Positions 2,339 to 57,550 of a stretch of DNA of 62,817 nt are shown here, piece by piece. The stretch's first letter is position 1, and every line of letters begins with the position of its first letter. The position numbers and the translations under genes were made by a program. Source of the stretch: Acidobacteriota bacterium (lineage in GTDB: Bacteria > Acidobacteriota > Terriglobia > Terriglobales > Acidobacteriaceae); the NCBI GenBank assembly GCA_003224755.1, contig QHZR01000079.1, forward strand, positions 1 to 62,817, read 5' to 3'. The notes beneath the pieces are model-generated. The model did not search any database. It saw only the letters and a list, made by a program, of their open reading frames with translations, and was not told the origin of the DNA.

Positions 2339-3757
2339 ATGCCGGTTTCCCCTGCGCGCGCGGCGGCGTTTGAAATCCTGCTGCGGGTCGAGACGACCGA
2401 TTCCTACGCTTCGGAGCTGCTCCACTCCAGCCGCTTCGCGAAGCTTTCTGGTGCAGACCACGGCTTGCTGACCGAGTTTGTCATGGGTGTGCTGCGCTGG
2501 CGCGGCGTACTGGATGACAAAATCGCAGAGCACACAAGTCAACCGCTAATCAAACTGGATCGCGAAGTGCTAATCGCACTGCGCCTGGGTGCGTATCAAC
2601 TCCTGTTCCTTGATCGTGTTCCGAAGCACGCCGCCATCAACGAGAGTGTGGAACTGGTCAAGCGGGCGCGCAAGAAGTCAGCAGCTGGAATGGTGAATGC
2701 GGTGTTACGGAAGATTTCTAATTCCCATTTCTCCCAAAAGAGGCAAGAAGTTGGGCCCTCATTCGATGATCGTTCCGCACATCCTGCATGGCTAGTTGAG
2801 CGATGGCAGCGAATCTATGGCCCAGAGGCCGCAAACAAGATCTGCGAGTACGACCAATCGATGCCGCAGACTGCGGTTCGCATGACCACTACTCTTTCAA
2901 TTAGTGATGCGAGTCGAGCTTCGCTTGATGGACAGCCGAGGGCGGCTGTCCCCACATTGGAATGCATCTCCTCACCGCCGGCACCGCCTTTCCACACGGC
3001 ATTCGAGCAGGTTCGGGCTCAAGGAATTCAGTTCAAAGGAGGAAGACTACTGGGCCAAGCCGCCGTTCTCAAAGCTGGCGACATCTCTCAAACTGCATTT
3101 CGCGAACGCCGGTTGGTAATTCAGGACGAAGCCTCGCAACTGGTCGCGCTGCTAGTTGGGCGGGGGAACTCCATTCTCGATTGCTGCGCTGCGCCGGGCG
3201 GCAAGACACGCATTATGGCAGAAAAGAATCCCAACGCAACGGTCGTAGCGATGGATCTGCACCCGCACCGCGCGAACCTGCTCCGCAGACTTGCGCCTGA
3301 GTCAAATATTCAAGTGATCGCAGCCGACGCCCGCCACATGCCATTCGCCACAACCTTCGATCGCATTCTGGTGGATGCTCCGTGCTCGGGAACCGGGACG
3401 CTGGCCCGAAATCCCGAGATCAAATGGCGGCTTACACCGGAGGACATCTTGCGCTTGCAGGCATATCAAATCGAAATTCTGACCGCGGCGATGAAGCACG
3501 TGGCGAAACGCGGCCGCATTATTTATTCGACCTGCTCGCTGGAACCTGAGGAAAACGAAGCGGTCATCGAAAAGGCGATGGCTTCCGAGAGGTCATTTAA
3601 AGTGGTTGATTGCGGGGGCGAACTGCGGCGGCTCGCTACACAGGGTGAGCTTGTCTGGGAAGGCATCGAATCGCTCTTGAGTGGGCCGCATCTGCGGACG
3701 ATTCCTGGCGTGCATCCTTGCGATGGGTTCTTCGCGGCTGTCCTTGAGCAAGGATGA
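2339..3757 (+). CDS. rsmB: 16S rRNA (cytosine-5)-methyltransferase RsmB
   Basis: Methylates C5 of cytosine 967 (E. coli numbering) in 16S rRNA using S-adenosylmethionine. An N-terminal NusB-like domain (residues 1-140, with RVPKHAAINESVELVK) precedes a Rossmann methyltransferase domain: SAM motif ILDCCAAPGGKT near 279, VDAPCSGTGTLARNPEIKW near 344, and YSTCSLEPEEN near 397. The Cys residues of the last two are the release and nucleophile cysteines of this family. At 472 residues it is longer than usual (about 430), partly because of an inserted palindromic repeat (2914-2955) that adds a GQPRAAVPT stretch near residues 192-206, between the two domains. The frame remains open throughout. Confidence 0.95.
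   Translation: MPVSPARAAAFEILLRVETTDSYASELLHSSRFAKLSGADHGLLTEFVMGVLRWRGVLDDKIAEHTSQPLIKLDREVLIALRLGAYQLLFLDRVPKHAAINESVELVKRARKKSAAGMVNAVLRKISNSHFSQKRQEVGPSFDDRSAHPAWLVERWQRIYGPEAANKICEYDQSMPQTAVRMTTTLSISDASRASLDGQPRAAVPTLECISSPPAPPFHTAFEQVRAQGIQFKGGRLLGQAAVLKAGDISQTAFRERRLVIQDEASQLVALLVGRGNSILDCCAAPGGKTRIMAEKNPNATVVAMDLHPHRANLLRRLAPESNIQVIAADARHMPFATTFDRILVDAPCSGTGTLARNPEIKWRLTPEDILRLQAYQIEILTAAMKHVAKRGRIIYSTCSLEPEENEAVIEKAMASERSFKVVDCGGELRRLATQGELVWEGIESLLSGPHLRTIPGVHPCDGFFAAVLEQG
2914..2955 (+). repeat. Double-hairpin palindromic repeat inside rsmB
   Basis: TCGAGC-TTC-GCTTGA (2914-2928, one G-T pair) is followed by GGACAGCCG (2930-2938), AGGG, and CGGCTGTCC (2943-2951), then CCAC. The second module is identical to the two copies at 42482-42611. 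It is read in frame as part of the rsmB protein. Confidence 0.85.
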
Positions 3758-3862: not shown

Positions 3863-3909
3863 CCCAGGACTCACGTCCTGGGCTAACTATATCCCGCCCC
3901 TGTCGGGGC
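3863..3909. repeat. Intergenic hairpin repeats downstream of rsmB
   Basis: CCCAGGAC-TCAC-GTCCTGGG (3863-3882) and GCCCC-TGTC-GGGGC (3896-3909) lie in the 274-base gap between rsmB and the convergent PASTA gene. They belong to the same hairpin family as the cluster at 34570-34924. They may also stop transcription from either side, but no T-run follows. I see no gene in this gap. Confidence 0.75.
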
Positions 3910-4031
3910 TTGTTAGTTGCCAATTCAATCCTCTTGCCTCATGCGCGCATGGTGTTCTCACACACTAATGTGTGTCGCAGAGGAGGATCTGTTAGGTGTA
4001 TCGAGGCCTTCACCGCAGGCGGCCCTAATTT

Positions 4032-29399: not shown

Positions 29400-29486
29400 A
29401 CCGCAAAGAACGCAAAGAAAAGCAGCAAAGATTGCGAAGCAATCACAAACGACCTAATTTTTTGCGATCTTTGCGTTCTTTGCGGT
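29400..29486. repeat. 19-bp perfect inverted repeat of CGCAAAG units, without a gene
   Basis: ACCGCAAAGAACGCAAAGA (29400-29418) and its exact reverse complement (29468-29486) flank 49 bases. The arms are like those around the GxxExxY gene at 15180-15646 but with CGCAAAG units. A partial copy (TTGCGATCTTTGCGTTAAA) lies at about 31364-31382. Confidence 0.85.
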
Positions 29487-29555
29487 TAAAGTCTTTTGCC
29501 TCGATGAGGCAAAGCGCTCTTTGCCTTTGAGTCGGACTATCTGCGAAACTGAATC

Positions 29556-31311: not shown

Positions 31312-31469
31312 AGCAGGTCGGGAGTCCTCAACTTTCTCTTCGCAGGGTGCGTGGTAGATTTTCTTGCGATCTTTGCGTTAAACGCTTGCCTTGCGAAGCC
31401 TCCCGGAATTCATCGGCGTAGAATAGATGTGGACGGGCGGCCCGCTTGTCCAGTCGGGCGAATTCAGTG

Positions 31470-33602
31470 ATGGATGCTCTCCTGCAAAGAAAGATTGAGA
31501 AGCGCTCGCAGACGGTGCGCCTCCAGGGCCGCATTCTTTTCCTGACAGAAGATCCAGCGCTGATCAAGAAGCAACTTGCCGGGGAAGATCTGCCCTGGGA
31601 CACGAAAAATCCCCAGAACAATCCCAAACTGCGCGATGATATTTCGACCGACGAGATCACTCCCGCCCACATCTGCTTCTTCTTCGATGAAACGCTTGGC
31701 GAATTCCCCTACACAGGCCTGAAGTGCGGAGCCGAGCTGCCCATCCAGCGCGGAGATGTCAAGCGCGGCGGCTTTGTCGCGGCGGTTAGCGGCAAACGCC
31801 GCGGCAAAGGATCGAGCCGCGAGCAATCTCCTTACGCCGAGCTTTGCGCCGGCATCGAGCTGGTGATTGCTGAAAATATCGAGCGCATTTACAAGCAGAA
31901 TTGCCAGAACCTTGGCGTTCTTACATCTACGGATTTTTCTCTGATTGAGAAGATTCTCTCGGGCGACGAAATTCCGCTGTCAGTTTTTACGGCCGGCGAA
32001 GATGAGATCACGCGGCAGATCATCGAGTACGGCGGTCTGTTTCAGTTCAATCTCGCGCGCATGCAGGGAAAAGTTTTTCTTCCGCCAATCGGGGCCAAAA
32101 TGGAGTATCACGGCCTTGGAAATGTGCGCCGTTACAGTACACCGCCAATGACCCTTGCCGAAAAGATCTTCGCGCGTCACATGGTGAGCACGAGCGAGGG
32201 GATCAGCAATGACCACGTGGGGACGGGTGCCCCCACCCGTCGGGGCGAGCAAGGCTCGCCGAGCCTTGGTGTGCCCGCAGTCAAATCCGGTGACTCCGGT
32301 TTCGCCCGCACTGACCTGCGCTTCAGTCACGAATACGTTAACCCGATGGCGGCGATTTTCTTCGATAAGCTGGTCGGACGCGACGCTCCAATCAACGATC
32401 CCGGTTCGGTGCTCTTCTTCCGCGACCACCTGACGTTTCTAGACGAAGTCCTCTCCGAGCAAAAACGCAAGATGGGCCTACTCGATCTCGCGACCCAGCT
32501 CAAGTTAAAACAAGGCGAGTTTGCCGCGCGAAAAGGGATCCGACTGCACGGCGAATTGACCGATCGCAAGGGCGCAGAAGGCATTTGTCATTCAGTTGTG
32601 CTCGAGAGTTACGCACTACCGGGCCAGTTGATTGTCGGCTCTGACTCCCACACCCCGCACTCCGGTGCCATTGGCTGCGTTGCGTTTGGCATTGGCACGA
32701 CTGATGTTTTCAATTCATGGATCACGAAGGATGTGCGCGTCCGCGTTCCCGAGTCGGTGAAAATCATTGTTCGTGGCAAGAAGAATGCAAATGTAACCGC
32801 AAAAGATTTCATTCTGAAGATACTGAGCCTCGATTACGTGCGCAGCGGAAAAGCGCTGGCCAAAGTGATTGAATATGCCGGCGAGTCGATTGAAGAACTC
32901 AGTGTGGACGAGCGCGCCACCATGACCAACATGGCGGCCGAGATAGGCGGCTTTACTGGCATCGTCGCGCCGGATCAAAAGGCTGTCGAGTTTCTGGTTG
33001 AACGCCGTGGCATGGACAGATGTGAAGCTGAGCGGATGATCCAAGGCCTGACCAGCGATCCCGATGCGCAATATGCCGAAGTCATTGAACTCGATGCGTC
33101 TGAAATTCATCCGATGGTCGCAACCCCTGGCGATCCCGGTAACGGCAAATACGTGCGCGATCTAAATACTCCGGTCCCCGTTGAGCTCGCATACGGCGGG
33201 ACCTGCACCGCAGGCAAGAACGAAGATATGGACATGTACGCCCGCGTGCTAGCCGACGCACTCCAGCAAGGCAAGCGCGTGGCAAGCGCGGTGCAATTTT
33301 ATATCCAGTTTGGTTCCCAGCAAACGCGCGAGTATTGCATTCGAAAAGGCTACCTCGAGGTCTTCCAAAAAGCGGGAGCTCATGTGATCGAGCCCAGCTG
33401 CGGCGCCTGCATCAATGCCGGACCGGGGGTTTCAACACGGCCAGATCAGGTTGTCATCAGTGCGCAGAATCGCAACTTCCCCGGCCGCAGCGGTCCCGGA
33501 CAAATGTATCTGGCGAGCCCGCTCACCGTGGCCGCCAGCGCCGTCGCAGGCTACATCACGGAATACAATCCCAGCGAAGCACGCGAACTCATGCCGGCAT
33601 GA
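31470..33602 (+). CDS. Aconitase-superfamily hydro-lyase, swivel domain first
   Basis: A 710-residue single-chain dehydratase. The N-terminal LeuD-like swivel domain (about 30-200) has SAVSGKRRGKGSSREQSPYAE-like content (GSSREQSPYAE). The three-part [4Fe-4S] catalytic domain follows with VGSDSHTPHSGAIGC, YGGTCTAGKNEDMDMY and CGACINAGPG for the cluster cysteines, and SAQNRNFPGRSGPG. Swivel-first order is that of AcnB, but the AcnB HEAT domain is absent. It may be the cell's aconitase or a related dehydratase; leuCD at 5448-7623 argues against a leucine role. I use the ATG at 31470; a TTG at 31446 is possible. A palindromic repeat inserts about 25 residues near residue 250. Confidence 0.85.
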   Translation: MDALLQRKIEKRSQTVRLQGRILFLTEDPALIKKQLAGEDLPWDTKNPQNNPKLRDDISTDEITPAHICFFFDETLGEFPYTGLKCGAELPIQRGDVKRGGFVAAVSGKRRGKGSSREQSPYAELCAGIELVIAENIERIYKQNCQNLGVLTSTDFSLIEKILSGDEIPLSVFTAGEDEITRQIIEYGGLFQFNLARMQGKVFLPPIGAKMEYHGLGNVRRYSTPPMTLAEKIFARHMVSTSEGISNDHVGTGAPTRRGEQGSPSLGVPAVKSGDSGFARTDLRFSHEYVNPMAAIFFDKLVGRDAPINDPGSVLFFRDHLTFLDEVLSEQKRKMGLLDLATQLKLKQGEFAARKGIRLHGELTDRKGAEGICHSVVLESYALPGQLIVGSDSHTPHSGAIGCVAFGIGTTDVFNSWITKDVRVRVPESVKIIVRGKKNANVTAKDFILKILSLDYVRSGKALAKVIEYAGESIEELSVDERATMTNMAAEIGGFTGIVAPDQKAVEFLVERRGMDRCEAERMIQGLTSDPDAQYAEVIELDASEIHPMVATPGDPGNGKYVRDLNTPVPVELAYGGTCTAGKNEDMDMYARVLADALQQGKRVASAVQFYIQFGSQQTREYCIRKGYLEVFQKAGAHVIEPSCGACINAGPGVSTRPDQVVISAQNRNFPGRSGPGQMYLASPLTVAASAVAGYITEYNPSEARELMPA
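32216..32260 (+). repeat. Double-hairpin palindromic repeat inside the aconitase gene
   Basis: GTGGG is followed by GACGGGTG-CCCC-CACCCGTC (32222-32241) and GGCGAGC-AAG-GCTCGCC (32244-32260). The GGCGAGC hairpin is nearly that of the copy at 42569-42584. The insertion is read in frame as HVGTGAPTRRGEQGSPSL and keeps the protein open. Confidence 0.8.
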
Positions 33603-34485: not shown

Positions 34486-34569
34486 GGCAGCTGTTAGCTG
34501 TTAGCTCTTGGCCTTTAGCGTGAGGCCCTTGGGTTCCGAGTGTGTGACAGTTGTAATAGTTATGCTCCA

Positions 34570-34924
34570 GCCCCGTAGGGGCGGACGAACTTAGCCCAGC
34601 GCTTCAGCGCTGGTAACAAGGAATTCAAGTCCCAGAGGGACGGCCGAGTCTTTCGGCTTGCGTCGGCATCGTGGGAAGTTGGAAATGCGCTGGCGTACGG
34701 CGTGAATTACCAGCCGCGCAGCGCCGCAAGAATACAGCCCAGGGCGTAAGCCCTGGGTAGGATGAGAACAACCGAGAGCCCCGAAGGGGCGACAGAATCA
34801 AAGTGCACCTCCGCACCGAGATTCGAGGTGTGGCACAGGACCAGCCCCGAACCGGGCGATATGTGAAAGCCCGGCACGGAAGTGCCGGGGTAGCAGCAGA
34901 AATGGCGCGAGTCCCGTAAGGGAC
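34570..34924. repeat. Cluster of seven short hairpins between actA and actB
   Basis: This gap holds GCCCC-GTA-GGGGC (34570-34582), CCAGCGC-TTCA-GCGCTGG (34596-34613), GTCCC-AGA-GGGAC (34629-34641), CCCAGGGC-GTAA-GCCCTGGG (34738-34757), GCCCC-GAA-GGGGC (34778-34790), CCCGGCAC-GGAA-GTGCCGGG (34870-34889) and GTCCC-GTAA-GGGAC (34911-34924). The loops are three or four bases, mostly purine-rich. The last one ends 12 bases before the actB ATG. No gene is supported in 34486-34936; the minus-strand open frames are translations of the repeats. Confidence 0.9.
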
Positions 34925-38009: not shown

Positions 38010-38107
38010 ACGAGCTTTGAGCAACGAGCTTCGAGCAAGCTCACGGCTCATAGTTCGCTGCTCACAAGCTAAGAGCTGATAGCTGAAAACTGATAGCTCA
38101 GTACAAC

Positions 38108-42481: not shown

Positions 42482-42611
42482 GTGGGGACAGCCGCCCTCG
42501 GCTGTCCGCCGAACGCAGTTCGGCTTAATTGTTTTCTGAAGCTGCGGAGCAATGCAGGCGAAAGAATTGGCGAGCAAGCTCGCCAGGACAGCCGAGGGCG
42601 GCTGTCCCCAC
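42482..42611. repeat. Inverted pair of palindromic repeats ahead of SCO1
   Basis: GTGGGGACAGCCG-CCCT-CGGCTGTCC (42482-42507) and its exact reverse complement (42586-42611) flank about 78 bases. The left copy has an added hairpin GCCGAAC-GCA-GTTCGGC (42508-42524); the right one has GGCGAGC-AA-GCTCGCC (42569-42584). They form a large hairpin just upstream of the SCO1 start. Confidence 0.9.
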
Positions 42612-47370: not shown

Positions 47371-47424
47371 GCCCCGGGGTGCAAGCCTTGGGTAAGCGTA
47401 AGAGATGGCCAGCCCCGGCGGGGC
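47371..47424. repeat. Hairpin repeats after the cox cluster
   Basis: GCCCC-GGC-GGGGC (47412-47424) and a CCCCGGGG-bearing copy at 47371-47391 belong to the same family as 34570-34924. They fill the 285-base gap (47246-47530) before the FAD oxidase gene and give rise to a spurious N-terminal extension of that gene. No other gene is supported there. Confidence 0.7.
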
Positions 47425-47530
47425 GAAAGGTGCGTCACGCCTCTGTATAGCCGCAAGGAATGTCTTCACCTGTGTTAATCCTGGAAATCCGCGGCGAAGT
47501 TTTGAGGTTGCCGAATGCTATCTTTACTCC

Positions 47531-50458
47531 ATGCCTTCGGACCTCGATTCCGTGGCGCTCGAGTCGGCGCTGCGTCGCAATCTACGCGGTGACGTTCGTT
47601 TCGATAACGGCAGCCGCGCCCTCTACGCCACCGATGGTTCGAATTATCGCCAGGTTCCAATCGGAATTGTTCTGCCGCGCGATAATGACGACGTAGTTGC
47701 TACAGTTTCTATTTGCCGCGAGCATGGCGCGCCCTTGCTCTGTCGGGGTGGAGGGACGTCGCTCGCCGGACAGTGCTGCAATGTCGCCGTTGTGGTCGAT
47801 TTCTCGAAGTACATGGCTCGGATCCTCGAGATTGATCCGGTTCGCCGCAGAGCACGGGTCCAGCCTGGCGTCATCCTCGATCACCTGCGAGGCGCTGCCG
47901 AGAAACATAATCTGACCTTCGGGCCCGACCCTGCGTCTCACAGCCGCTGCACCATCGGCGGAATGGTCGGGAACAATGCTTGCGGTGTGCACTCGGTTAT
48001 GGCCGGCAAGACGGATGAAAATATCGAGGAACTGGCAGTCCTCACTTATGACGGTGTCCGCATGCGTGTCGGTCCAACGAGCGACAGCGAGCTCGAAAGC
48101 ATCATTCGGGAGGGGAACCGCCGCGGTGAGATCTACGCAGGGCTGAAAACAATTCGCGACCAGTACTCCGACCTCATTCGACAAAAATTCCCGAACATTC
48201 CACGCCGCGTCTCCGGCTACAACTTGAATTTCCTGCTTCCGGAGAACGGCTTTAACGTTGCGCGGGCCTTAGTTGGCTCAGAAGGCACATGCGTTACCGT
48301 TCTTGAAGCAACTTGCCGGCTGATCGAAAGCCCGCAAGCTCGAGTCCTGCTCGCAATCGGATGTCGGGACGTGTTCGAATGCGCCGATCTCGTCCCTGAG
48401 GTGCTCACTCATCGTCCAATTGGACTTGAGGGAATGGACAGCCAGCTGATCGAATACACGCAGCGCAGGGGAATGAATCCCGAAGGCTTGACTCTTCTTC
48501 CCAAAGGTGGAGGATGGTTGTTGGCCGAGTTTGGCGCCGATACTATCCCCGCCGCCGAATCCCGGGCGCGCCGATTAACGGAAGCACTCGGTCGCACCTC
48601 GTACGCTCCATCCTTTCGTCTTCTTACGGACATCCGGCAAACAAGAAAAGCTTGGGAGGTACGAGAATCCGCTCTGGGCGCGGTCTCTCGCGTACCGGGA
48701 GAGCCGGCAACCTGGGAAGGTTGGGAGGATGCCGCAGTTGCTCCGCACAAACTCGGAGGTTATTTGCGCGATTTGCGCAAGCTGACCGACGCGTACGGCT
48801 ATGGCTGTGTCGTGTACGGTCACTTCGGCGACGGCTGTGCGCACAATCGCATCAGCTTCGACCTTGAGTCCGGAGAAGGCATCAAGAAATTCCGCAACTT
48901 CATAAACGAGGCCGCAGATCTCGTCGTCTCCTACGGCGGCTCTCTTTCCGGTGAGCACGGCGACGGACAGGCGCGTGCCGAGTTGCTCCCCAAAATGTTC
49001 GGACCCGAACTTGTCCAGGCGTTTCAGAAATTCAAATCGCTATGGGACCCTGATTGGAAGATGAATCCGGGCAAGTTGGTTCGCCCGAATCGAATGGACG
49101 ATAACCTGCGCCTCGGTGCCAATTACAAGCCCTGGCAACCGGACACACATTTCAAATTTCCGCACGATCATGGCAGCCTGGCCGAAGCAACTCTTCGTTG
49201 CGTAGGCGTTGGCAAGTGCCGTCAGTATGAGGGCGGCGTCATGTGCCCGAGCTTCCGTGTGACTCGCGAGGAAGAGCATTCCACTCGCGGACGCGCGCAC
49301 TTGCTCTGGGAGATGACCAATGGCGAAGTCATACCCGACCAATGGCACGACACGCGCGTGAAGTCCGCTTTGGATTTGTGCCTTTCCTGCAAAGGCTGCA
49401 AAAGCGACTGTCCAGTCAACGTAGATGTCGCGACCTATAAAGCTGAATTTCTGTCCCATCATTATGACGGTCGCAGTCGCTCGCTCAACCACTACGCCTT
49501 CGGCCAGATCGACCGCTGGGCGCGGATTGCATCGGTCTTACCTGGAGCAGCAAATTTCTTTGCCCAAGCGCCAGTATTGCGAGATCTGGCTAAATCGCTT
49601 GCCGGAATTTCTCCCAAACGTACAATCCCGGCGTTTGCCAAGCAGAGCTTTCGGCGTTGGTTCGCAAAGAGGAAGCCGCGTGGGACAGGCGGCTCGCCTG
49701 TCCTGACCGACTTACGTACCGGCTCCAGACACGCCAGCCCCTCTTCAGTAGTTCTGTGGCCCGACACATTTAACAACTATTTCCATCCGGAAACAGCGAT
49801 CGCCGCCATAGAAGTATTAGAAGCCGCCGGTTGGCAAGTGCGACTGCCGAAAGGAAATGTCTGCTGCGGACGCCCACTCTACGATTTCGGCATGCTCGAT
49901 CGTGCGAAGAAACTGCTCCTTGCAACCCTCGACGTTTTGGAACCCGAAATTGCGAGTGCGACTCCGATCGTTGTCCTCGAGCCGAGCTGTGCTTCCGTAT
50001 TTCGCGATGAGATGCTTAACCTCTTTCCCGACGATGACCGCGCGAAAAAACTCTCGCAACAAGTGTTCCTATTAAGCGAGTTTCTCGAGAAAAATGCGCA
50101 GGCGTTCCAACTGCCCATACTCTGCCGCAAAGCGCTTGTCCACGGCCATTGTCATCACAAGTCCCTGATGAAGATGGCAGATGAAGAGTCGGTCCTTCAG
50201 CGCATGGGCATTGAGTATGAAATGCCGGCGCCAGGATGCTGCGGAATGGCGGGAGCCTTCGGATTCGAAAAAGAAAAGTACGATGTGTCAATTGCAATCG
50301 GTGAACTCGAACTGCTACCTGCAGTCCGCCAAGCGCCGGCGGACTATCTGATCATTGCCGACGGCTTCAGTTGCCGCGAACAGATTTCCCAGTGTACTGG
50401 ACGCCACGCCATTCACCTCGCCGAAGCGATTCAGATGAGCATGCGAACCGCAATGTAG
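47531..50458 (+). CDS. FAD-linked oxidase fused to an iron-sulfur and CCG domain protein (D-lactate dehydrogenase type)
   Basis: A 975-residue cytoplasmic or membrane-associated dehydrogenase, like fused GlcD-GlpC/DLD enzymes. The FAD domain (about 25-270) has CRGGGTSLAGQCCN and GGMVGNNACGVHSV, then a C-terminal FAD domain with YGHFGDGCAHNRI and SGEHGDGQARAELL. The iron-sulfur part has GVGKCRQYEGGVMCPSFR and CLSCKGCKSDCP, and two CCG-like domains (GNVCCGRPLYDFG, APGCCGMAGAFG) follow near 775 and 895. It probably oxidises D-lactate or a related 2-hydroxy acid to feed the quinone pool. A palindrome is inserted between the Fe-S and CCG parts. I start at ATG 47531. Confidence 0.9.
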   Translation: MPSDLDSVALESALRRNLRGDVRFDNGSRALYATDGSNYRQVPIGIVLPRDNDDVVATVSICREHGAPLLCRGGGTSLAGQCCNVAVVVDFSKYMARILEIDPVRRRARVQPGVILDHLRGAAEKHNLTFGPDPASHSRCTIGGMVGNNACGVHSVMAGKTDENIEELAVLTYDGVRMRVGPTSDSELESIIREGNRRGEIYAGLKTIRDQYSDLIRQKFPNIPRRVSGYNLNFLLPENGFNVARALVGSEGTCVTVLEATCRLIESPQARVLLAIGCRDVFECADLVPEVLTHRPIGLEGMDSQLIEYTQRRGMNPEGLTLLPKGGGWLLAEFGADTIPAAESRARRLTEALGRTSYAPSFRLLTDIRQTRKAWEVRESALGAVSRVPGEPATWEGWEDAAVAPHKLGGYLRDLRKLTDAYGYGCVVYGHFGDGCAHNRISFDLESGEGIKKFRNFINEAADLVVSYGGSLSGEHGDGQARAELLPKMFGPELVQAFQKFKSLWDPDWKMNPGKLVRPNRMDDNLRLGANYKPWQPDTHFKFPHDHGSLAEATLRCVGVGKCRQYEGGVMCPSFRVTREEEHSTRGRAHLLWEMTNGEVIPDQWHDTRVKSALDLCLSCKGCKSDCPVNVDVATYKAEFLSHHYDGRSRSLNHYAFGQIDRWARIASVLPGAANFFAQAPVLRDLAKSLAGISPKRTIPAFAKQSFRRWFAKRKPRGTGGSPVLTDLRTGSRHASPSSVVLWPDTFNNYFHPETAIAAIEVLEAAGWQVRLPKGNVCCGRPLYDFGMLDRAKKLLLATLDVLEPEIASATPIVVLEPSCASVFRDEMLNLFPDDDRAKKLSQQVFLLSEFLEKNAQAFQLPILCRKALVHGHCHHKSLMKMADEESVLQRMGIEYEMPAPGCCGMAGAFGFEKEKYDVSIAIGELELLPAVRQAPADYLIIADGFSCREQISQCTGRHAIHLAEAIQMSMRTAM
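49683..49703 (+). repeat. Palindrome inside the FAD oxidase gene
   Basis: GGACAGGCG-GCT-CGCCTGTCC is a 9-bp stem with a three-base loop. It is read in frame as GTGGSPVLTD in the linker between the Fe-S and CCG domains, near residues 717-726. Confidence 0.8.
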
Positions 50459-57240: not shown

Positions 57241-57335
57241 TCAGCGGTGAGCAATGAGTCGTGAGCGGCGAGCCCTTGGTTGCGGGCACCTCCGCTGTTG
57301 CTCACCGTTCATTGCTCGCTGCTCACAGGCTGAAA
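57241..57335. repeat. GAGCAATGAG-type imperfect inverted repeat upstream of OPT
   Basis: GCGGTGAGCAATGAGTCGTG and the later CACCGTTCATTGCTCGCTGC pair imperfectly. The element sits in the 340-base gap between the divergent OPT and zinc-ribbon genes (57211-57550). The rest of the gap holds a TATAAT at about 57491 as a possible -10 for the zinc-ribbon gene; I see no gene in it. Confidence 0.55.
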
Positions 57336-57550
57336 GCAATGTTGATTTCCAATGCCTCTACAGCAACTTTTGTACGGTCCATAGGTTCATACAGCTTGAA
57401 TAGGCCGCGCCGCAACTTAGCACGGGCATGGCCGATTTACAAGTTCGGTCCCTGTACTGATTCCTAGGACGGATTCGGTCTCCGTCGCCCTATAATGAAC
57501 TACGCCACCTGTCTGATTCGCCTTCTTGGCAGGTTTTGAGGGTATCAGTC

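Follow-up and report, generated by a model that had tools for sequence, protein, structure and literature searches.

In-frame REP and REPIN elements in genes of a Terriglobales bacterium and a candidate RAYT subfamily for their mobility

The 62,817-nucleotide stretch of DNA analysed here (the window) carries a family of short tagged palindromes, some of which are inserted in frame in protein-coding genes. Based on their anatomy, their copy number, their positions relative to orthologues and the transposase genes that they flank in related genomes, these palindromes are most likely REP/REPIN elements moved as single-stranded hairpins by a RAYT subfamily of Terriglobales, frame-keeping insertions in loops being tolerated (probability roughly 0.88). 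As contig C309, the window belongs to a 5.68-Mb assembly, an 87%-complete bin of 628 contigs; its features are collected in Table 1.

Table 1 Features of the window that bear on the repeat family
Feature	Position	Strand	Remarks
rsmB, 16S rRNA m5C methyltransferase (host gene)	2339-3757	+	open, 472 aa; insert at about residues 187-213
Degenerate tail hairpin GTCGAGC-TTC-GCTTGAT beside the rsmB REP	2913-2929 (about)	-	pairing read directly: five Watson-Crick pairs, two wobble pairs
REP GTGG-GGACAGCCG-CCCT-CGGCTGTCC (read on -) in rsmB	2930-2955	-	encodes GQPRAAVPT
Aconitase-family gene (host of an insert)	31446-33602	+	Pfam check
REP GTGGGGACGGGTG-CCCC-CACCCGTC in the aconitase linker	32217-32241	+	in frame
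Tail hairpin GGCGAGC-AAG-GCTCGCC	32244-32260	+	sequence; tail-hairpin statistics
Left REP of the intergenic REPIN	42482-42507	+	
Tail hairpin GCCGAAC-GCA-GTTCGGC of the REPIN	42508-42524	+	
Tail hairpin TGGCGAGC-AA-GCTCGCCA of the REPIN	42568-42585	-	
Right REP (inverted) of the intergenic REPIN	42586-42611	-	
FAD-oxidase/Fe-S (GlcD-like) gene (host of an insert)	47405-50458	+	Pfam check
REP variant GTGG-GACAGGCG-GCT-CGCCTGTC(C) in the FAD/Fe-S oxidase	49680-49703	+	encodes GTGGSPV

Structure and copy number of the repeat unit

Read on its own strand, the unit consisted of GTGG, an unpaired tag, and the stem-loop GGACAGCCG-CCCT-CGGCTGTCC. The general plan was a GTGG or GTAG tag, a 9-bp stem and a loop of 3-5 nt, in agreement with the definition of a REP as a 20-40-nt palindrome with a tag. 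In the stem variants AGCCG, GGGCG and GGGTG, the complementarity of both arms was preserved: when units were picked by the left arm alone, blind to the right arm, 42/47 AGCCG stems, 11/13 GGGCG stems and 6/8 GGGTG stems were fully paired. The stem variation was compensated, as is expected of REPs. A second small hairpin (tail hairpin) often stood directly after the REP, with forms such as GTCGAGC-nnn-GCTCGAC, GCCGAGC-nnn-GCTCGGC, GGCGAGC-nnn-GCTCGCC and GCGGAGC-nnn-GCTCCGC, among others. Perfect tail hairpins of at least 6 bp were present in 61% of 71 copies compared with 0.8% of shuffled tails, and their outer bases covaried.

Many units formed inverted pairs at short distance with the tags outward, which is the plan of a REPIN; the middle sequence differed from copy to copy. 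The intergenic REPIN at 42482-42611, just upstream of a SCO1-like gene, has perfect tail hairpins between its REPs. A weakly conserved 5' shoulder, R[AC][CT][CA]A[CT], preceded the GTGG tag, with C or T at position -1 in 62/64 copies and A at position -2 in 51/64; this shoulder is either part of the target or part of the element. Since host loops also vary outside the REP and the shoulder is conserved, the exact insertion borders were blurred. The element contained no stop codons in any reading frame, and no Rfam family was found for the unit itself.

The pattern GTGGGGACN{10,18}GTC matched the genome 88 times as compared to 12 times for the reversed control, so the unit occurs far beyond chance; a wider pattern gave 136 matches against 38, and the copies above background numbered ca. 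75. Copies were sampled from contig stretches of ca. 467 kb in total, most of the contigs having been chosen because they hold copies, and a search of these for GTRG plus a stem yielded 98 units in 76 elements, including ca. 16 inverted or grouped sets. A GTAG-tagged repeat of the form GTAGAGACGTTGC-TT-GCAACGTCTC was also observed in the same genome (L138 2025-2048, L147 896-919, L166 3749-3772 and L171 7106-7129).

Copies within genes and their orthologues

The original prediction held that the palindromic unit and a neighbouring hairpin lie in frame inside rsmB, adding GQPRAAVPT at a domain boundary, that the unit occurs twice more at 42482-42611, and that variants lie in the aconitase and FAD oxidase genes, each copy keeping the frame open; it proposed a count across the genome and a comparison with orthologues. 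The genome count given above and the inverted intergenic copies agreed with it, all three genes were open, and alignments with orthologues of the aconitase, rsmB, the FAD oxidase and further genes demonstrated that the palindromes are in-frame insertions. The rsmB and aconitase copies were found as predicted, each with its hairpin. The FAD oxidase variant was real and in frame, but it comprised the main stem only and the adjacent GGCGAGC hairpin was missing. The FAD oxidase linker was short in most orthologues, with the insert absent or different there. Most rsmB orthologues had no REP stretch, and one same-genus genome carried a variant REP, GGACAGCCGAGGGCGCCTGTCCCC, at the site.

An AlphaFold model of the window RsmB, built from 21 sequences, had a mean pLDDT of 88.5. 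The pLDDT fell below 50 only at residues 134-142 and 187-213, and the latter segment, which is the insert, was the longer of these two very-low-confidence segments in a model that was otherwise confident. This predicted model places the insert within the ferredoxin-like domain, in the loop that joins strand 179-182 to helix 221-227, and not at a domain boundary. The model thus supports a position in a tolerated loop.

The aconitase linker was surveyed in 97 distinct sequences, with a tree built without the linker. REP-derived inserts were found in 18 of the 97, all in one 15-residue linker; the other 79 had no insert, and nearly all of these had a linker of 14-15 residues, a few having 8 or 17-21. 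By aconitase, the closest named relatives were soil and peat Acidobacteria MAGs labelled Acidobacteriales, Terriglobales or Sulfotelmatobacter. The insert states required at least 14 changes on the tree, at least six of which were forced by well-supported branches, under a parsimony that counts changes and does not distinguish gains from losses, and the insert label was close to randomly scattered. The inserts differed in stem type and occurred in both orientations (AELRSAGRAGSPVPT vs VGTGAPARPAERSSA), while a similar peptide, V-G-T-G-A-x-x-R-P-A-E-x-S-S-A, was found in the same orientation in several Terriglobales genera. The original prediction had taken the same peptide at the same place in distant orthologues as a sign of ancestral protein sequence. 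REP peptides did occur at this linker in some other genera; however, since 79 of the 97 aconitases lacked the peptide and the carriers were scattered on the tree with different stems and orientations, the insertion appears to be recurrent. In same-orientation subsets, though not in the whole set, one old insertion may have been followed by many losses.

Besides the three genes of the window, 15/76 elements lay inside open genes according to a coding-frame score; at least 18 of ca. 77 sampled elements were in frame within genes. The 15 further calls were based on the coding-potential score and alignment to same-genus orthologues, and the names of these genes were read from translations, the three genes of the window being Pfam-checked. 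The further hosts encoded MurC, SelA, IspE, a thioredoxin-domain protein, UvrC, ValS, a hydantoinase, a UvrC-like protein, a xanthine-dehydrogenase-like protein, MetH, AlaS, an RDD protein, DnaE2, an AMP-binding ligase and a zinc alcohol dehydrogenase. AlaS contained three REP units, and single, double and nested unit arrangements were found in alaS and adh. Whole REPINs lay within DnaE2 and the UvrC-like protein and were missing from several same-genus orthologues. The hosts include essential genes of core enzymes, in which the inserts encoded variable stretches of 10-55 residues, with peptides derived from all frames of the unit (VGTGALARP, GRARAPVPT, TGEGARPH, GDSRPRLS, WGQPPSAVLS and DSRGRLSP). 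For the 15 further genes, same-genus genomes had either no peptide or another REP-like peptide in the same loop; in ValS and SelA, these genomes shared frame, position and orientation, whereas the stem type differed between species. In murC and ispE of same-genus genomes (L304, L305, L318 and L319), other recurrent loop peptides, EGHDFSRAE, EGTASSRAE and SAGRPFDKLRAGSRP, were observed; these look like translations of further repeat families, in which case several kinds of repeat use these loops.

RAYT genes associated with the repeats

Y1_Tnp genes were common in these genomes and fell into groups with different REPs. A REP-associated tyrosine transposase, which the original prediction had suggested seeking elsewhere, was found in relatives. 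One RAYT, in genome G029, matched Pfam Y1_Tnp with 30.8 bits (cut-off 23) and was located 222 bp from a copy of the window's exact REP. The loci of this RAYT and its close homologues from 16 other genomes (n=17) were compared with those of 13 distant RAYTs. GTRG palindromes were found within 400 bp of 15/17 close homologues as compared to 1/13 distant RAYTs (Fisher p = 1.7e-5), and on both sides in 11/17 of the close homologues. The flanking stems followed the same grammar (AGCCG-CCCT-CGGCT, GGGCG-CCCC-CGCCC, GGGTG-CCCT-CACCC and TCGGACA-CTCC-TGTCCGA). In the window's own genome, an 87%-complete bin, the search for a complete RAYT of the G029 subfamily yielded only a partial copy, which lies at C219 and has a REPIN on one side.

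Other RAYTs cleave single-stranded REPs guided by the GTAG tag, and GTGG variants are cut at CA or CC (PMC8266576). The 5' shoulder contains dinucleotides of the CA/CC kind. Were it the cleavage site, the guide model would pair GTGG tags with CC and GTAG tags with CT; no more than a weak trend in this direction was seen, with CC in 36% of GTGG shoulders against 24% of GTAG shoulders and CT in 44% of GTAG shoulders against 28% of GTGG shoulders.

The open frame of the G029 RAYT (L384 956-1690, G029:C50) extends upstream into the adjacent REPIN (MWGQPPSAVQSSEARQ...), and the gene may, judging from this reading frame, carry a REP-coded N-terminal extension. Other candidates from the window's own genome were rejected as the mobiliser. 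The RAYT at C204 contained a stop codon, and its GTGG REPs had another stem; at the best-scoring Y1_Tnp genes of the genome (L001 and L002), the flanking palindrome was a different one, Acido-Lenti-1. Yet other REPs (GTGCCCC..., GTGGAGCAGCGC...) accompanied many of the remaining RAYTs in relatives. One such group (L285, L286, L295 and L296, in the relatives G031 and G013) had flanking palindromes of the form GTGCCCC...GGGG, whose stems were longer (GTGCCCCAGGTCTCGCCGCTTTTGCGAGACCTGGG). These genomes hold several coexisting REP/RAYT families.

Origin of the insertions and relation to known systems

It was hypothesised that the origin and spread of the insertions are as described below. The RAYT (HUH tyrosine transposase) subfamily of these Terriglobales, of the G029 type, would move REPs as single-stranded hairpins. 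When translated, the element gives a hydrophilic stretch rich in Gly, Ala, Pro and Arg, and insertions in flexible surface loops would be tolerated because this product is hydrophilic and the element is free of stops in all frames. Frame-preserving insertions in such loops would survive as probably neutral passengers and others would be purged, which would account for the repeated use of the same loops in different species.

That the peptides are old protein sequence, with palindromes arising from codon choice or conserved mRNA structure, would account for the aconitase peptide shared in one orientation by several Terriglobales genera and for the agreement in frame and orientation of ValS and SelA in same-genus genomes. 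This is very improbable, however, given the short peptide-free linkers of the 79 aconitases, the scattered carriers with both orientations and different stems, and the occurrence of the same DNA unit both in intergenic positions and, within unrelated genes, in six different frames. A single old insertion in each gene, followed by many losses and by stem conversion from the genomic REP pool, would explain why same-genus SelA and ValS copies agree in position and orientation while the stem type varies by species, and the tree, which counts changes and not gains, is compatible with it. We consider it unlikely, since the aconitase linker holds opposite orientations, alaS and adh hold single, double and nested arrangements, and the full REPINs of dnaE2 and the uvrC-like gene are missing from several same-genus orthologues.

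The paired inverted ends, which lie 80-130 bp apart, look like those of a MITE, in this case from a double-strand (DDE) transposon of the conventional type with GTGGGGAC as its terminal inverted repeats. Such an origin is highly improbable: REPs commonly occur singly, conservation does not extend to the inner sequence, inspection by eye of the flanks of the listed pairs revealed no target duplications, and RAYT genes are bordered by these same palindromes. The inserts might instead be functional regulators, acting as mRNA hairpins or selected protein linkers, rather than tolerated passengers: stem complementarity is maintained even within genes, and the DNA-repair genes uvrC and dnaE2 are hit, as in other phyla. 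Nevertheless, retained complementarity is also expected of recent copies, the host genes are unrelated, either orientation occurs and most orthologues manage without an insert, and such a role is distinctly unlikely. Mobilisation by RAYTs, with tolerated insertion in loops, accordingly remains our preferred explanation. A tentative extension, which we hold to be doubtful, is that REP/RAYT insertions in Terriglobales are a standing source of loop variation. Identical loops of core enzymes would be decorated repeatedly, in-gene stems would be kept palindromic or replaced by conversion from the genomic pool, and the evolution of the peptides would then follow the mobile family and not the host protein.

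Di Nocera et al. 2013 (PMC3733652) described REPs with GTAG and CGTC tags, including the dimers that they form, their link to RAYTs and the copies that lie in frame within genes. Many of these genic copies were in DNA-repair genes, and Opitutus terrae and Rickettsia conorii had them most often. The present elements fit the GTAG-tagged superfamily of that study, which includes the largely GTGG-tagged GTAG-20 of Opitutus terrae, in their unpaired GTRG tag, 6-13-bp stem, short loop, compensated stem variants, head-head inverted dimers, RAYT linkage and partly in-frame genic copies, including those in excinuclease genes, dnaE2 and tRNA synthetase genes. They differ in belonging to Terriglobales, in the GGAC(AGCCG/GGGCG/GGGTG) stem family and in the tail hairpin beside the REP; in the main text of PMC3733652, Acidobacteria are mentioned only in connection with transposases that have other terminal repeats at their flanks. 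Reuse of a loop across species, recurrent here, was reported there in one case (recB of two Xanthomonas species). As in known REPIN/RAYT systems (Bertels and Rainey 2011, PMC3116915; Nunvar et al. 2010, PMC2817692; PMC8266576), REPs form inverted pairs and the RAYT, of the HUH Y1_Tnp family with a DHVH...WQ...Y-x3-NP motif, is flanked by its own REP. The present system differs in that relatives hold the complete RAYT and the window's genome yielded only a partial one, in that the tag is mostly GTGG instead of GTAG, and in that a large share of copies is intragenic. The likeness to Rickettsia palindromic elements that had been predicted held for behaviour: both are palindromic, repeated and in frame in unrelated genes whose products are presumably functional. 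The sequences are unrelated, and, unlike the short rickettsial elements, which have a CGTC tag and no linked transposase (PMC3733652), ours are GTGG/GTAG-tagged and RAYT-linked.

In-frame genic REPs, already known from other phyla, were catalogued in 2013 for a limited set of species (PMC3733652). We found no description of genic REPs in Acidobacteria in the literature searched, a search outside which subscription journals and preprints lay, and novelty seems to lie in the family from Acidobacteria, in its plan of two hairpins and in its repeated use of identical loops. In many genes and genomes of one order, the same loop can be seen empty, with one REP, with another REP or with a reversed one, and REP movement, the neutrality of inserted peptides and the share of mobile DNA in protein sequence become testable by plain comparison. 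Caution is also warranted, as variable loops of acidobacterial proteins can be translated mobile DNA.

Acido-Lenti-1 (RF01687), classed in Rfam as an sRNA, is a palindromic repeat of the same genomes that likewise flanks RAYT genes; it differs in its stem (CCCAGNGC...GCNCTGGG) and in its RAYT group, which is a different and higher-scoring one. Copies were located in the window at 3863-3910, 34569-34614 and 34712-34757, and beside the two best Y1_Tnp/RAYT genes (L001 1396-1441; L002 1318-1363 and 1897-1944), those at L002 lying inverted on both sides of the gene. An sRNA gene is a less likely reading of Acido-Lenti-1 than a mobile palindrome associated with RAYTs. The window contained two further kinds of repeat: TTTTTTGCGATCTTTGCGTT-type repeats at 29458-29526 and 31360-31379, near a perfect TTTGCCTC/GAGGCAAA hairpin, and GCTCACGGCTCATAGTTCGCTGCTCACAAGCTAAGAGC, present as two 38-nt copies (38039-38076 and 57300-57337) that were 82% alike.
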